Source: Halopiger djelfimassiliensis (GTDB lineage: Archaea > Halobacteriota > Halobacteria > Halobacteriales > Natrialbaceae). From it: a stretch of 64,000 bases of DNA. The stretch covers positions 815,888 to 879,887 of the forward strand of contig NZ_HG315686.1 in assembly GCF_000455365.1 (NCBI RefSeq), given 5' to 3'. Positions 35,605 to 42,239 of this stretch are shown here, one piece after another; the first letter of the stretch is position 1, and every line of letters begins with the position of its first letter. Made by a program: the position numbers and the translations under genes. The notes below the pieces were generated by a model, which saw only the letters and a program-made list of their open reading frames with translations, was not told the DNA's origin and ran no database searches.

Positions 35605-36687
35605 GTGCGAGTCCTGAACTACCTCGAGTGCGGATCGCTGCTAGCACGCAGCGGGATCAGTACGGCCGCCGCTCAGCAACGGACGGCGCTGTCGCGGATC
35701 GCCGACGCAGCGTTCGCCGTCGATCTCGAGGTCGTGACCGATCCCTGGCGCGACCCACGGTGTGCGTTTCGGGGCGGCGCGGCCACCTGGCCGATCGTCG
35801 ACTACGACCTGGCTCACTGCAACGCGGTCGGTCCGGGTTCGATCGCGGTCGCACGACACGCGATCCGAACCGGACGGCCGCTGGTCTTGCACGCCCACGT
35901 TACCCGCGCGGACTTCCGCGACAGCTTCCGCGGATCGAACGCGATCTCGAGACCGCTCGGGCGGTATCTCCGCTGGTTCTACTCGCAGGCCGATCTCGTG
36001 TGCTGTCCCAGCCGAGCAACGAAGCGCCACCTCGAGAACGAGTCGGTCGACGCACCGATCGAACCGATCACGAACGGCGTCGACGTGGCGTCCCTGAAAG
36101 GGTACGAACGGCTCCGCGAGCCCTATCGGAGCCGGTACGGTATCGACGGCGACGACCCGGTCGTCTTCGCGGTCGGGAACGTCTTCGAACGGAAGGGCGT
36201 CTCGACGTTCTGCCGGCTTGCCCGGCAGCTTCCATACGAATTCGTCTGGTTCGGCCCGTACGATCGCGGGCCGCTGGCGAGTCAGGCTATCAGGAAGTGG
36301 ACACAGGAGCCGCCGGACAACGTGACGTTCACCGGATGGATCGACGACAAACGCGGGGCCTTCGGTGCCGGCGACGTGTTTTGTTTTCCGACCCGGGTCG
36401 AAAACCAGGGCATCGCCGTTCTCGAGGCGATGGCCTGTGGAAAGCCGGTCGTAATACGCGATATTCCCGTCTTCGAGGAGTTTTACACCGACGGGAAAGA
36501 CTGCCTGAAGTGTACGACGGACGCGGAGTTCCGGAACGCGATCGAGCGGCTCGCAGCCGATCCCGGCCTCCGGCGACGGCTGGGTCGAAACGCCCGCGAG
36601 ACCGCCGCCGAACACGATCTCGAGACGGTCGGCGAACGGTTACTCGAACTGTACCGACAGGTATCCGTTCGGAGTGTCGACGATTGA
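35605..36687 (+). CDS. Glycosyltransferase, GT4 family
   Basis: The 360-residue protein from GTG 35605 has a GT-B fold. The N-terminal domain has LECGSLLARSGISTAAAQQ and LVLHAHVTRADFRDSFRGSN; the C-terminal domain has VVFAVGNVFERKGVSTFCRL, VTFTGWIDDKRGAFGAGDVF and ENQGIAVLEAMACGKPVVIR, which is the E-x7-E-type donor-binding motif of GT4. It transfers a sugar from a nucleotide donor onto a glycan or lipid; specificity unknown. Monocistronic. Confidence 0.85.
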   Translation: MRVLNYLECGSLLARSGISTAAAQQRTALSRIADAAFAVDLEVVTDPWRDPRCAFRGGAATWPIVDYDLAHCNAVGPGSIAVARHAIRTGRPLVLHAHVTRADFRDSFRGSNAISRPLGRYLRWFYSQADLVCCPSRATKRHLENESVDAPIEPITNGVDVASLKGYERLREPYRSRYGIDGDDPVVFAVGNVFERKGVSTFCRLARQLPYEFVWFGPYDRGPLASQAIRKWTQEPPDNVTFTGWIDDKRGAFGAGDVFCFPTRVENQGIAVLEAMACGKPVVIRDIPVFEEFYTDGKDCLKCTTDAEFRNAIERLAADPGLRRRLGRNARETAAEHDLETVGERLLELYRQVSVRSVDD

Positions 36688-36798: not shown

Positions 36799-38568
36799 AT
36801 GAATCACGAACTCAGTAACCCTGACGACGGCGTCAGCCGACGGTCGGTGCTGGCTGCGACTGCAGCCGGGCTGGTCGGCTCGACGGGCGGTTGTATCGAC
36901 CGCGTCCAGAGCGTCGTCGATCAGGACGGAGACGATCAACTCTCGCTCTCTATCATGACCGTCCCCGCGGACGGCGACAGGGAGAGCGTCCAGATCGCCC
37001 GCCAGCTCGAGGCGAACCTCGAGGCGGTCGGTGTGGACGTCACGGTCTCGATGCGGTCTCGGTCCGAGTTTCTCGAGGCGGTACTGATCGAGCACGATTT
37101 CGACCTCTACGTCGGTCGCCATCCTGCCGATTTCGATCCCGACTTCCTCTACGAGGCCCTCCACTCGACGTACGCGAACGAGGCCGGCTGGCAGAACCCG
37201 TTCGGGTTTACCAGTATGGCGTTCGACTCGTCCCTCGAGACACAGCGCCGCGCGGACGGCCAGGAGCGAGCAACACACGTTGCATCGGTACTGAACGGAC
37301 TGGCACAGGAGAAGCCGTTTGAGCCGATCTGTATCCCATCGGAGTATCGAGTCGCCCGAACGGATCGGTTCGACGGCTGGGAGGACGACCATCTCGCGAC
37401 CCGACTGGGCTATCTCGGGCTCGAGTCGGGCGAAGGCGTCGACCGGCTTCACGCCCTCGTCACCGACGCTCGACCCTCCCAGAACGTCAATCCACTCTCG
37501 GCGACGATCAGGGAACGGGGGACCGTCATCGACGTCCTGTACGACTCGCTCGCGACCGTCGACGTAACGGACGACACGACGTCGCTTCGGCCCTGGCTCG
37601 CCGCCGACTGGGAGTGGAACGATTCGACGGCGACGGTAACCCTCCGCGAGGGCTGTCGGTTCCACGACGGCGAACCGGTCACCGCCGCCGACGTCGCGTT
37701 CACCTACCGCTTTCTCGCGGACACGACGCTCGGCCGTGGACCGGTCCCGTCACCGGCACCGCGATATCGCGGCCAGGTCGCGGCGATCGACGACATCGAG
37801 GTCGTCGACGACCGCCGGCTGACGGTCTCGGTAACGAGCGGCCAGGAGGTCGGCGAGCGGGCGTTTACCGTCCCGATCCTCCCCGAGCACGTCTGGCGGG
37901 AACGGGTCGAATCCCGCATCGGTCGACCGGACGAGTTCTCCCCGCCACAGGGGAAATGGGGTGTCGTCACCACGGACAACGTTCCACCCGTCGGGAGCGG
38001 CCCCTTCCAGTTTGCCGCCCGCACCGAGCGCGAACACATGACCCTCGAGCGCTTCGACGAGCACTTCACGCTCCGAGAGGACGTTTCCCTCCCCGAACCG
38101 ACCGTCGAGGAACTGCGGTTCGGCGTCGATCCGGGAACCGCGTCCTCGATCGAACGGGTCGCCGGCGGTGAGGCGGACGTCACGACGTCGATGCTCGAGA
38201 CGTACGCCCTCGAGGAGATCCCGGACGCGCCCGAAATCGAACGGCTGGAATCGCCGTCATGGACGTTCTATCACGTCGGCTTCAACACCCGGAAGACGCC
38301 GTTTAGCAACTCACACTTCCGGCGTGCGGTCGCCCGACTGCTCGACAAGGAGTGGCTGGTGGAGTCGGTGTTCCACGGTCACGCCACGCCGGTCACCGCG
38401 CCGGTCGCCGACGAGTGGGTACCCGACTCGCTCGTGTGGGACGGTGAGGATCCGGTTACGCCGTTTGTCGGCTCCGGCGGCGATCTCGACGTCGAAGCCG
38501 CCAGAGCCGCGTTCGAAGCGGCCGGCTTCCGGTACGACAGTGACGGACGGCTCTTGGGGCAGTACTGA
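36799..38568 (+). CDS. SBP_bac_5-type solute-binding lipoprotein, copy 1
   Basis: The 589-residue protein has a Tat signal (SRRSVLAATAAGLVGSTGGC, lipobox Cys near residue 34) and reads as an extracellular family 5 (oligopeptide/nickel) binding protein. Blocks include DRESVQIARQLEANLEAVGV, TVTLREGCRFHDGEPVTAAD (about 277-296, the classic start of the binding fold) and HFRRAVARLLDKEWLVESVF. No permease or ATPase gene lies near; the partner is instead a PAP2 protein overlapping at TGATG. The whole pair is duplicated at 39505-42239. Ligand unknown. Confidence 0.85.
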   Translation: MNHELSNPDDGVSRRSVLAATAAGLVGSTGGCIDRVQSVVDQDGDDQLSLSIMTVPADGDRESVQIARQLEANLEAVGVDVTVSMRSRSEFLEAVLIEHDFDLYVGRHPADFDPDFLYEALHSTYANEAGWQNPFGFTSMAFDSSLETQRRADGQERATHVASVLNGLAQEKPFEPICIPSEYRVARTDRFDGWEDDHLATRLGYLGLESGEGVDRLHALVTDARPSQNVNPLSATIRERGTVIDVLYDSLATVDVTDDTTSLRPWLAADWEWNDSTATVTLREGCRFHDGEPVTAADVAFTYRFLADTTLGRGPVPSPAPRYRGQVAAIDDIEVVDDRRLTVSVTSGQEVGERAFTVPILPEHVWRERVESRIGRPDEFSPPQGKWGVVTTDNVPPVGSGPFQFAARTEREHMTLERFDEHFTLREDVSLPEPTVEELRFGVDPGTASSIERVAGGEADVTTSMLETYALEEIPDAPEIERLESPSWTFYHVGFNTRKTPFSNSHFRRAVARLLDKEWLVESVFHGHATPVTAPVADEWVPDSLVWDGEDPVTPFVGSGGDLDVEAARAAFEAAGFRYDSDGRLLGQY

Positions 38569-39440
38569 TGTTCACCGAGGTATTACTGCGGGTCGTCACC
38601 GTCGTCGTCGGGCTCATGCTGCCGGTGGCGATTGCCGTCTTCGTCGGTCGGCAGCGACTCGCGACGGTGCGTTCCGAGTGGAAACACCGCCTTCGGGTCT
38701 GTGGGCCGACCATCGCCGTTTTGCTCGTCGTTTTGGCACTCAATCGGGTGATGCGCCAGATCGGTCCCGGACTCTCCAGAGATATCGGGATCCACATGAC
38801 GGAGGTATTCTACGACCTCGAAGGGGAGTTCGTTCTGATCTTCCAGACCATCCAGACGTCGGAAGTGACGTCGTATTTCACGTTTACGTACGTGTATGGC
38901 TACACGTTTTTGCTGCTCTTTCCGGTCGTCGCCTACTTCGCGCTGTCGGATACCGTCCCGTTTCGGCGACTCCTCGTCGCGTATTCGTTCAACTACGCGT
39001 TGGGGTTGGTGCTCTACATTTTCGTGATCGCGTACGGCCCACGGAACATGATGCCCGAGTTGGTCGGCGAGACGATGCTCTACGATACGAAACCGGAGTA
39101 TCAACACCTCACCCGACAGGTCAACCGCAACACCAACGTCTTCCCGTCGCTTCACACCTCGCTTTCGGCGACCGTCGCGACGTTTGCCTACATGACTCGC
39201 TCGGAGTATCCGAAATGGTTCCCCGTCGCGACCGCCCTCGCGGTCAGCGTCATCGTCTCGACGATGTATCTGGGAATCCACTGGGGGATCGACGTCGTCG
39301 CCGGTCTGCTTCTGGCCGCGGTCTCCGTCGCGCTCTCGATCAAACTCGTCGGTCGATGGTCGGTCTCGGCGGGCCTCGAGACGATCGGAGCCGTGCTCCG
39401 ACCACCCTCCGACGACCCGTCGACGACCGACCGGGAGTGA
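38568..39440 (+). CDS. PAP2-superfamily membrane phosphatase, copy 1
   Basis: The 290-residue membrane protein has about seven to eight helices. The PAP2 catalytic blocks are seen late in the sequence: RQVNRNTNVFPSLHTSLSAT (PSLH, C2 block, about 182-201) and STMYLGIHWGIDVVAGLL (C3 block, about 223-240). The C1 Lys-x6-Arg-Pro block is less clear; YDTKPEYQHLTRQ lies before C2. Inositol-phosphorylceramide synthase (AUR1)-like proteins share this look. It dephosphorylates or transfers phospholipid headgroups at the outer face (inference). Its start overlaps the binding-protein stop. Confidence 0.82.
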   Translation: MFTEVLLRVVTVVVGLMLPVAIAVFVGRQRLATVRSEWKHRLRVCGPTIAVLLVVLALNRVMRQIGPGLSRDIGIHMTEVFYDLEGEFVLIFQTIQTSEVTSYFTFTYVYGYTFLLLFPVVAYFALSDTVPFRRLLVAYSFNYALGLVLYIFVIAYGPRNMMPELVGETMLYDTKPEYQHLTRQVNRNTNVFPSLHTSLSATVATFAYMTRSEYPKWFPVATALAVSVIVSTMYLGIHWGIDVVAGLLLAAVSVALSIKLVGRWSVSAGLETIGAVLRPPSDDPSTTDRE

Positions 39441-39456
39441 CGACGCCGCGACGGCA

Positions 39457-39472
39457 ACGCAATACTGTTATA
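39457..39472 (+). promoter_or_regulatory. Shared promoter motif, copy 2
   Basis: The 16 bases ACGCAATACTGTTATA are identical to 36752-36767. The motif ends 32 bases before ATG 39505. Bases around it have diverged, so the motif itself is conserved. Confidence 0.65.
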
Positions 39473-39504
39473 CCACCGCCAGCGAACTGTGACAAACGAA
39501 CGAG

Positions 39505-41328
39505 ATGAGCGAAGCCGCCCCGGATGCCGACCACGGTCGTGAGAGCAGTACCGGCGGAGTCAGTCGCCGAGCGATGCTGGCCGCGGCGACAGGCCTGACC
39601 GTCTCGAGCAGCGGGTGTATTCGGCGGGTCCGCAGTATCGTCAATCGCGACGCGATCGAACCGCTCTCGCTCACGATCACGACCCTCCCGGCCGACGGCG
39701 ACAGGGAAAGCATTCAACTCGCTCGGGAAATCGCATCGGTTCTCGAGGCGGTCGGAATAGACGTCTCGATCGAAATGCGGTCCAACGAGGAGTTCCTGCG
39801 GGCGATCCTGATCAACCACGACTTCGACGTCTACGTCGGTCGCCACCCCGGGGGCACTGACCCGGACGTTCTCTACGAGGCGTTGCACTCCCGGTACGCC
39901 GAGGAGGCGGGCTGGCAGAACCCGTTCGGGTTCACGAACCTGACGTTCGATACCCTCCTCGAGGAGCAACGTCGCGCCGTCGGTGAGGAGCGATCGGCGG
40001 CCGTCGCAACCGTGCTCGAGGCGCTGGCCGTCGAACAGCCGTTCGTCCCGATCTGCGTGCCGGAGGAGTACCGGCTCGTCAGGAGCGACCGCTTCGACGG
40101 CTGGAACGACGGCCACCTCGCGACCCGGCTGGGCTATCTCGGGCTCGAGTCGCTCGGGGACGCGGACGGGAAGCGAACGCTCCGCGTCGTTCATACGGAT
40201 GCGCGGCCGTCACAGAACCTCAACCCGCTTTCGGTCGAGTACCGCAATCGGGGAACGTTTACGGATCTCCTGTACGATTCACTGGCGAGCCCCGACGTGG
40301 ACGCCGTCGCCGGCGACGGGGAATCCGACGGGATCGAAACGCTTCGACCCTGGCTGGCGGCCGACTGGGAGTGGTCCGACGACGCAACGATGACCGTGGA
40401 ACTCCGCGAGGGCTGTCGGTTCCACGACGGCGAGCCGGTCACCACCGACGACGTCGTCTTTACCTACCGCTTTCTCGCGGACACGACCCTCGGGGACGGC
40501 GAGTTCCCGTCACCGTCGCCACGCCACCGTGGCCGGGTTGCGGCCGTCGACGGCGTCGACCGGATCGACACACATCGGGTCGAACTGTCGTTTGACGCCG
40601 GTGACGCCGCGGCCGAGCGTGCGCTGACGGTCCCGGTGTTGCCCGAACACGTCTGGCTCGACCGGGCGACGAAAGCGGACGTCCCCGGCGTTCGCGTCGC
40701 CGACGGGACGACCGAAGCCCTCGTTGCCGACAACGTGCCACCGGTCGGGAGCGGTCCCTTCCGGTTCGTCGACCGGGCCGAGCGCGAACACGTCACCTTC
40801 GAGCGCTTCGACGAGCACTTTACGCTCCGGAAGGGCGTCGCCCTGCCGGAACCGACCGTCGACGAACTCCGGATCCGGATCGACCCCCGGAGTACGTCGG
40901 CCATCGAACTCGTCGAGACCGAGAGCGCGGACGTGACGAGTTCGACCCTCGACACCTACGTACTCGACGACGTGATAGGGTCGACGGGCGACGGCGTCGA
41001 ACTGCTCGAGTCGCCGTCGTGGACGTTCTACCACCTCGGGTTCAACGCCCGACGGGCACCCTTCAGCAACCCGCGATTTCGCCGCGCGGTCGCGAGGGTG
41101 ATCGACAAGGCGTGGCTGGTCGAGACGGTCTTCGACGGATACGCTCGCCCAATCGCCGCGCCGGTCGCCGACGAGTGGGTACCCGACTCGCTGGCGTGGA
41201 ACGGCGAAGATCCCGAGACGCCGTTTCTCGGCTCCGACGGCGATCTTGACGTCGAAGCGGCACGCGACGCGTTCGAAGCCGCCGGATTCAGGTACGACGA
41301 GACGGATCGACTCCGGGTGAGACGCTGA
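39505..41328 (+). CDS. SBP_bac_5-type solute-binding lipoprotein, copy 2
   Basis: The 607-residue paralogue of 36799-38568 keeps the Tat signal (SRRAMLAAATGLTVSSSGC), the DRESIQLAREIASVLEAVGI opening, VELREGCRFHDGEPVTTDDV and the RRAVARVIDKAWLVETVF end. It has extra residues around 260-275 (DVDAVAGDGESDG) and 405-420. The pair arose by tandem duplication and has clearly diverged, so a different ligand is possible. It overlaps the PAP2 gene at TGATG and has no ABC partner nearby. Confidence 0.85.
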   Translation: MSEAAPDADHGRESSTGGVSRRAMLAAATGLTVSSSGCIRRVRSIVNRDAIEPLSLTITTLPADGDRESIQLAREIASVLEAVGIDVSIEMRSNEEFLRAILINHDFDVYVGRHPGGTDPDVLYEALHSRYAEEAGWQNPFGFTNLTFDTLLEEQRRAVGEERSAAVATVLEALAVEQPFVPICVPEEYRLVRSDRFDGWNDGHLATRLGYLGLESLGDADGKRTLRVVHTDARPSQNLNPLSVEYRNRGTFTDLLYDSLASPDVDAVAGDGESDGIETLRPWLAADWEWSDDATMTVELREGCRFHDGEPVTTDDVVFTYRFLADTTLGDGEFPSPSPRHRGRVAAVDGVDRIDTHRVELSFDAGDAAAERALTVPVLPEHVWLDRATKADVPGVRVADGTTEALVADNVPPVGSGPFRFVDRAEREHVTFERFDEHFTLRKGVALPEPTVDELRIRIDPRSTSAIELVETESADVTSSTLDTYVLDDVIGSTGDGVELLESPSWTFYHLGFNARRAPFSNPRFRRAVARVIDKAWLVETVFDGYARPIAAPVADEWVPDSLAWNGEDPETPFLGSDGDLDVEAARDAFEAAGFRYDETDRLRVRR

Positions 41329-42239
41329 TGCTCGGCAGAGTACTGCTGCAACTGGTCGTGGTCGAGACGCTGCTGATCGCCGTCTCGGTCCCCATCTTCG
41401 TCGGCCGATATCGGCTCCGGGATACGCTGGCAGAGTGGCCGGAACGCCTGCGCTCGATCGCCCCCGCTACGGCCGTGCTTGTACTCGTCCTGCTGTGTAA
41501 CAACGTCGCCAGACAGGTCGTCCCCGACCTGTCGTGGATGATCGGCCGGAACCTCACCTGGACGATCTACGACCTCGAGGGGCAGCTTATCCCCTGGATC
41601 CAGTCGTACGCGACGCCCGCGGTGACGGCGTACTTTTCCTTTATGTACATCTACGGCTACGTCTTCCTGCTCGTCTTTCCAGTCATCGCGTACTTCGCGC
41701 TCTCGAACACCCGGCCGCTCCGGGAGTTGCTGGCGGCCTACACGCTCAACTACACGCTCGGGTTGCTCTGTTACGTCTTCGTCATCGCCTACGGGCCGCG
41801 AAACATGATGCCGGAACTCGTCGAGGCGCTGCTGTACGATACGTATCCGGAGTATCAACACCTCACCCGACAGGTCAACCGCAACACCAACGTCTTCCCG
41901 TCGTTGCACACCTCACTTGCGACCACCGTCGCAGTCCTCGGCTACCGGACGCGGTCGATCTATCCGAAGTGGTTCCTCGTCGCGACTGCGCTTGCGGTTT
42001 CGATCGCGATATCGACCATGTATCTGGGGATCCACTGGGGAATCGACGTTCTCGCTGGAATCGTGCTCGCGTACGTCAGCGTCGAGTTCGCCGGAACGCT
42101 CGTCGGTCGCTGGTCGCTCTCCGAGTGGCTCTCCGGACACGGCCGATCGCTCCGGAGATGGGTGTGGCGGTCACGTTCCAACCGTCACGATGCCGAACGA
42201 TCCCCTGATCGGACGAAAACGCACGATACCGAGGAGTAG
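41328..42239 (+). CDS. PAP2-superfamily membrane phosphatase, copy 2
   Basis: The 303-residue paralogue of 38568-39440 retains the same blocks: YQHLTRQVNRNTNVFPSLHT and MYLGIHWGIDVLAGIVL, with IAYGPRNMMPELVEALLYDT before them. The C-terminus differs and is basic (RWVWRSRSNRHDAERS). The blocks PSLH and GIHWGID hold the catalytic His and Asp residues. It completes the duplicated two-gene unit. Confidence 0.82.
   Translation: MLGRVLLQLVVVETLLIAVSVPIFVGRYRLRDTLAEWPERLRSIAPATAVLVLVLLCNNVARQVVPDLSWMIGRNLTWTIYDLEGQLIPWIQSYATPAVTAYFSFMYIYGYVFLLVFPVIAYFALSNTRPLRELLAAYTLNYTLGLLCYVFVIAYGPRNMMPELVEALLYDTYPEYQHLTRQVNRNTNVFPSLHTSLATTVAVLGYRTRSIYPKWFLVATALAVSIAISTMYLGIHWGIDVLAGIVLAYVSVEFAGTLVGRWSLSEWLSGHGRSLRRWVWRSRSNRHDAERSPDRTKTHDTEE

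Follow-up and report, generated by a model that had tools for sequence, protein, structure and literature searches.

The stretch of DNA analysed here (64 kb, hereafter the window) comes from the 3.78-Mb genome of Halopiger djelfimassiliensis (Natrialbaceae; G000 in our numbering, in which G denotes genomes and L examined loci or sequences). At positions 36799-42239 it carries four genes, arranged head-to-tail on the + strand in the order SBP1, PAP2-1, SBP2, PAP2-2, which encode two substrate-binding proteins (SBPs) of the SBP_bac_5 family, predicted to be lipoproteins, and two membrane proteins of the PAP2_3 family. The original prediction had described them as two diverged but still coupled copies of a lipoprotein/phosphatase unit, which is borne out at exactly this span by open reading frames and Pfam matches: SBP1 and SBP2 score 169.3 and 180.6 bits against SBP_bac_5 (PF00496; gathering score 32.4), PAP2-1 and PAP2-2 score 59.3 and 65.8 bits against PAP2_3 (PF14378; gathering score 27), the SBPs are 63% and the PAP2 proteins 61% identical to each other, and in both pairs a TGATG stop/start overlap joins the SBP gene to the PAP2 gene. 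What had been overlooked is the probable circular permutation of the SBPs and the existence of permuted relatives in operons of ATP-binding cassette (ABC) transporters. In the following list of features, HMM positions refer to a hidden Markov model (HMM) built from the six canonical SBP_bac_5 proteins of the host genome, and i-E is the independent E-value.

36799-38568, +: SBP1, predicted circularly permuted SBP_bac_5 lipoprotein, 589 amino acids (Pfam E 1.7e-49, in two stretches)
36799-36894, +: twin-arginine translocation (Tat)-type signal and lipobox of SBP1, RR...STGGC, to Cys32 (from the sequence)
36898-37398, +: SBP1 residues 34-200, the canonical C-terminal part, placed at the front (HMM 366-535, i-E 1.4e-7)
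37426-38565, +: SBP1 residues 210-589, the canonical N-terminal part, placed at the back (residues 210-557 match HMM 44-357, i-E 1.7e-46)
38568-39440, +: PAP2-1, multi-pass membrane protein of the PAP2_3 family, 290 amino acids, overlapping SBP1 by 1 nt (PF14378, E 5.8e-16)
39144-39155, +: PSLH catalytic motif of PAP2-1, invariant across 33 relatives
39505-41328, +: SBP2, second predicted circularly permuted SBP_bac_5 lipoprotein, 607 amino acids (Pfam E 6.3e-53)
39505-39618, +: Tat-type signal and lipobox of SBP2, SRR...SSSGC, to Cys38 (from the sequence)
39628-40107, +: SBP2 residues 42-201, the canonical C-terminal part, placed at the front (HMM 368-530, i-E 3.6e-7; Pfam positions 287-358 in the L010 match)
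40174-41325, +: SBP2 residues 224-607, the canonical N-terminal part, placed at the back (HMM 91-344; residues 280-600 match Pfam SBP_bac_5 positions 2-283)
41328-42239, +: PAP2-2, membrane protein of the PAP2_3 family, 303 amino acids, overlapping SBP2 by 1 nt (Pfam E 5.9e-18)
41898-41909, +: PSLH catalytic motif of PAP2-2, residues 191-194, invariant
42033-42047, +: H236...D240 catalytic motif of PAP2-2 (HWGID), with H236 and D240 invariant

The possibility that the pair is found only here does not hold, as a third SBP-PAP2 pair is present in the host genome (G000:C3, about 17.7-20.4 kb) and the pair recurs across Halobacteria. In a survey of SBP_bac_5/PAP2 neighbourhoods in other loci, a PAP2 gene on the same strand directly follows the SBP gene in 87 of 93 cases (31/33 in L012-L030, 30/30 in L031-L060, the two sets sharing some loci, and 26/30 in the distant families L061-L090); one of the misses, L085, has an interrupted SBP frame, with the PAP2 gene coming after the second piece. 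Overlap with a start codon is seen for 79 of the 103 SBP stops inspected. An SBP of the PAP2-linked clade occurs in about 264 of 392 Halobacteria genomes (E < 1e-40, counted from the match listing). The pair is found, for example, in Halostagnicola larsenii and, on plasmid pHG2, in Haloferax gibbonsii (L153; WP_231608391.1 with WP_004977931.1). In 35 genomes the SBP and a close PAP2 relative are present or absent together without exception: all 11 SBP-holding genomes possess a PAP2 relative that is 39-55% identical (E 2e-48 or better), and the 24 genomes that lack the SBP have no close one, identity in long matches reaching about 34% at best (E 2.6e-16 or weaker). Three genomes (G147, G033 and G136) have no PAP2 gene adjacent to the examined SBP locus, yet encode a close PAP2 protein elsewhere. 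Fisher's test of this co-occurrence gives 2.4e-9, a value that overstates independence, because the genomes are related to each other and were picked by hand as holding or lacking the SBP. In trees of the Natrialbaceae the first-copy SBPs form one clade and so do the first-copy PAP2 proteins (support 0.999 each; the second-copy PAP2 clade has weak support, 0.03), and therefore duplication of the unit predates the divergence of these genera. Partial loss is observed in Natrinema (L023 and L027), where the first pair is intact and no PAP2 gene follows the second copy of the SBP.

PAP2 is the sole constant neighbour of the PAP2-linked SBPs, which are not encoded together with permease and ATPase genes. 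As originally noted, there is no permease nearby: BPD_transp_1 (PF00528) has no match in the window, and all its 39 matches in the genome lie elsewhere. In the host genome every canonical SBP_bac_5 gene, six in all, lies no more than a few kb from two permease genes. These six pairs account for the twelve strongest permease matches genome-wide, and none of them lies near any of the three permuted SBPs. Taken together, these data support the view that the SBP and PAP2 genes constitute a real, conserved and co-inherited unit without ABC partners.

Neither SBP1 nor SBP2 follows the colinear N-to-C order of the SBP_bac_5 fold, the alignments with both profiles and PDB chains being swapped. The Pfam match is split: profile positions 2-284 fall in the protein's C-terminal half and 287-363 close to its N-terminus. 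PDB chain 5u4o aligns with SBP2 in the same fashion (query 280-549 with chain 88-324, query 59-176 with chain 365-481), and in SBP1 the canonical HMM finds the signal first (HMM 21-43, residues 11-33), then the C-part and then the N-part. Rotation of the sequence raises the best-domain score of the three permuted copies from 147 to 171, from 146 to 171 and from 96 to 115 bits. In five of the six canonical controls the gain is about 2 bits or less, and the sixth gains 30 bits with only about 10 terminal residues moved. It follows from the two-piece order and the rotation scores that the lipobox precedes the third with which the fold would ordinarily end; there is strong sequence evidence that the PAP2-linked SBPs are circularly permuted, with the C-terminal third placed after the lipobox and ahead of the N-terminal two thirds. 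Residues R21, R22, G37 and C38 (SBP2 numbering) are invariant in an alignment of 35 relatives, in agreement with a lipobox, and lipidation is predicted. In the AlphaFold2 (AF2) model of the SBP (predicted local distance difference test score, pLDDT, 80.3), alignments with PDB structures, made in sequential order, cover no more than about 255-431 of 607 columns, as would be expected of a permuted protein.

Permuted SBPs have been also found in complete ABC operons, comprising an SBP, two permeases and ATPases, in several haloarchaea (L118-L121, L123, L125-L127 and others) and in an ABC operon on plasmid pOM-1 of the alphaproteobacterium Nitratireductor (L152). The haloarchaeal ones are only about 25-32% identical to SBP2, and L119 aligns unambiguously with PDB 8efz in the swapped order (query 225-538 with chain 23-323, E 2.6e-22; query 41-168 with chain 336-454, E 1.8e-8). 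The broad permuted SBP_bac_5 group L118-L131 plus L152, mostly in complete ABC operons, is annotated plainly as ABC transporter substrate-binding proteins. In a quick maximum-likelihood tree of 60 SBPs, brought to a common order by rotation, the 21 PAP2-linked SBPs form a single clade (support 100 in the Shimodaira-Hasegawa-like approximate likelihood-ratio test, SH-aLRT), on a branch that also holds two long canonical SBPs and 15 permuted members of the ABC-linked group. As permuted relatives sit in ABC operons, the permutation is independent of PAP2, and we rejected adaptation to PAP2 as its sole cause. Most likely, as far as an unrooted tree allows, the permutation preceded the pairing with PAP2 and the PAP2-linked clade lost its transporter.

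A permuted SBP_bac_5 protein of another subfamily (L132:2377-4359, - strand; G006:C1, about 406.9-408.9 kb) adjoins a DppB-like permease. It groups in the tree with the canonical L006 of the host genome, apart from the other permuted SBPs, and is similar to it in swapped order, with 43.7% identity between residues 236-654 and 53-465 (blastp, E 9e-124) and 38% between residues 59-239 and 472-655 (E 1e-40). Because of this grouping and swapped identity, L132 apparently represents an independent circular permutation. Both permuted kinds end at one place, just past the AxxxLLeeAGY helix, so that at least two seemingly independent permutation events with an identical breakpoint are seen.

In the PAP2 proteins, residues P191, S192, H194, H236 and D240 (PAP2-2 numbering) are invariant, the PSLH and HWxxD motifs being kept in 33 relatives. 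The loops that bear these motifs are not positively charged, and the alternate ones are: loops 1, 3 and 5 contain on average 6.5, 2.2 and 2.3 K+R versus 2.1, 1.1 and 0.5 D+E. According to the positive-inside rule, loops 1, 3 and 5 would be cytoplasmic and loops 2, 4 and 6 outside; as loops 4 and 6 carry the motifs, the His-His-Asp active site is predicted to be extracellular, on the lipoprotein's side of the membrane. The folds nearest to the AF2 model of PAP2-2 (pLDDT 80.9) are those of inositol phosphorylceramide (IPC) synthase (9vj4), Aur1-Kei1 (9ivc) and LpxE (6ebu), all matches being of modest significance (E 1.7e-3 to 1.6e-2), and the protein is predicted to be a lipid phosphatase or a phospho-head-group transferase, both of which are possible.

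The explanation that we favour, and to which we would give about an even chance, is that the SBP, on the outside of the membrane, works with the PAP2 enzyme as its subunit or regulator and serves no ABC importer. It is built on gene pairing, co-occurrence, co-duplication, the PAP2 motifs, the lipobox, the permutation and the kinship with ABC-linked permuted SBPs. Each pair would encode a two-part enzyme of the outer face of the haloarchaeal membrane, in which the lipid-anchored permuted SBP would be in physical contact with the PAP2_3 protein as an accessory or regulatory, possibly substrate-presenting, subunit controlling its catalysis. The PAP2_3 protein would be an Aur1/LpxE/PgpB-like phosphatase or phosphotransferase whose site, by the positive-inside rule, would lie outside, and its likely substrate would be an envelope lipid: a membrane or polyprenyl phospho-lipid, or a glycolipid. 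The original interpretation is supported in part: it stands as regards the conserved unit, while the ligand transfer from the SBP to PAP2 that it envisaged may occur, and transfer in the opposite direction or purely allosteric or structural support would be just as conceivable. We suggest, more tentatively, that haloarchaea as a class may possess a lipid phosphatase or phosphotransferase of two subunits, of which one, a permuted former ABC SBP, would recognize the head group or ligand and either hand it over to, or gate, the outward-facing Aur1-like PAP2. If this were true, displacement of the anchor to the other lobe by permutation would have eased the switch from transporter to enzyme.

Four points speak against the favoured explanation. 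The substrate class of PAP2 is uncertain because its fold matches are weak (best E 1.7e-3); no fused SBP-PAP2 gene was found among the loci examined; few conserved neighbours name a pathway, the GT4 glycosyltransferase gene upstream of the tandem pair (window 35605-36687) being present in only 4 of 17 Natrialbaceae loci; and the SBP core is well conserved, so that ordinary ligand binding for transport may still be its task.

A first alternative is a scavenging function, in which PAP2 would dephosphorylate a compound, either extracellular or linked to lipid, and its product would be captured by the SBP for a shared ABC permease encoded elsewhere. The complete ABC operons with permuted relatives, including that of Nitratireductor, are in its favour, as are the presence of other SBP_bac_5-type permease pairs in the host genome and of phosphorylated-sugar binders in the family, e.g. 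AccA (according to PDB entry titles). We nonetheless consider it rather unlikely, since all six strong permease pairs of the host genome already own a canonical SBP, and a shared permease would not call for strict pairing and joint loss with PAP2. It is also conceivable, albeit improbable, that the SBP is a sensor, which detects an extracellular ligand or the state of the envelope and gates PAP2 allosterically, presenting no substrate. SBPs close on their ligand, and the new N-terminal anchor, attached to the part of the fold that follows the conserved breakpoint, would alter the way in which the protein hangs from the membrane; on the other hand, no ligand is known and no sensor-specific feature was seen in these proteins. 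An operon of convenience, with co-transcribed but functionally separate genes, would agree with the variable surroundings and with the few loci in which the SBP has no adjacent PAP2, but is quite unlikely given the joint presence or absence in 35/35 genomes, also where the genes are unlinked, and the duplication of the pair as a unit.

Beyond the pair, neighbouring genes vary between loci. The GT4 glycosyltransferase was rejected as a third partner on account of its infrequent occurrence; in two of the four loci that have it, a second GT4 (L012:12735-13703; L014:13112-13873), 27-31% identical to the first, lies downstream. In some distant loci, including that of H. gibbonsii, an arylsulfotransferase-like protein, a PMT_2-like glycosyltransferase or a membrane protein with a WPYTS motif is encoded near the SBP; such neighbours would fit an envelope-glycoconjugate role, though none is constant. 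Members of the WPYTS/WPFTS family lie beside the SBP at L104:10877-12139, L105:10311-11687, L110:7470-8564, L117:11202-12428 and L153:3465-4934; the family has no Pfam match even at E 10, and an LssY_C-like domain considered for it was rejected on this ground. The third SBP-PAP2 pair of the host genome adjoins a CetZ tubulin-like gene (L098:11763-12920). Long frames at L061, L062 and L068, considered as SBP-PAP2 fusions, were dismissed, as they comprise an upstream open frame and no PAP2 domain. A stand-alone PAP2_3 gene elsewhere in the host genome (L094:1084-3396; G000:C1, about 914 kb) reads in frame, with no stop, into elongation factor 1A; this apparent PAP2_3-EF-1A fusion most likely represents two genes in one frame, unrelated to the SBP-PAP2 pair.

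Orphan SBPs serving envelope enzymes and permuted SBPs (MglB-2) are already known separately. A search of mainly open-access literature revealed no report that combines an SBP_bac_5 permutation with PAP2 as the partner, and the permuted SBP_bac_5 branch appears to be undescribed in the literature searched. The SBP-PAP2 pair would be a widely conserved case of an SBP leaving transport for a membrane enzyme, by steps that can be traced from a canonical SBP, to a permuted SBP in an ABC operon, to a permuted SBP with PAP2. Since Haloferax gibbonsii has the pair and its genus is well suited to genetic work, direct experiments on what an archaeal envelope-lipid enzyme does come within reach.

Among the known systems, DppA, OppA, AppA and NikA (PF00496) have the sequence family and the predicted fold in common with the SBPs described here, which differ from them in the permuted order and in having no ABC partner. 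The PAP2 proteins share with the Aur1/inositol phosphorylceramide synthase-like PAP2_3 proteins, LpxE and PgpB the PSxH and HxxxD motifs, the multi-pass character and the best fold matches, weak as these are, and differ in being archaeal and paired with an SBP. The lipoprotein LpqW has an SBP_bac_5-like fold and, unlike our SBPs, is not reported as permuted. According to the title of a study cited in PMC12802301, LpqW is needed in mycobacteria and corynebacteria for mannosylation of periplasmic glycolipids. Tp0684 (MglB-2) of Treponema pallidum is a lipid-anchored substrate-binding protein that is circularly permuted in nature (PMC4990184), and both the anchor and the permutation are predicted for the SBPs studied here as well; it binds sugar, however, belongs to Type I/cluster B and is presumed to work with an ABC importer, whereas ours are of the SBP_bac_5 (OppA/DppA) type and have no transporter. 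In mycobacteria, the orphan SBPs LpqZ and FecB were found by co-immunoprecipitation to bind the membrane arabinosyltransferases AftA and AftB (PMC12802301). They belong to other SBP families and act with other enzymes, in Bacteria, are not reported as permuted, and their contact with the enzyme has been demonstrated, whereas that of our SBPs with PAP2 is a prediction; nevertheless, they are likewise SBP-fold lipoproteins without a transporter, whose partners are integral-membrane enzymes of envelope biosynthesis, and by analogy they would be the closest functional precedent for an SBP acting on PAP2.

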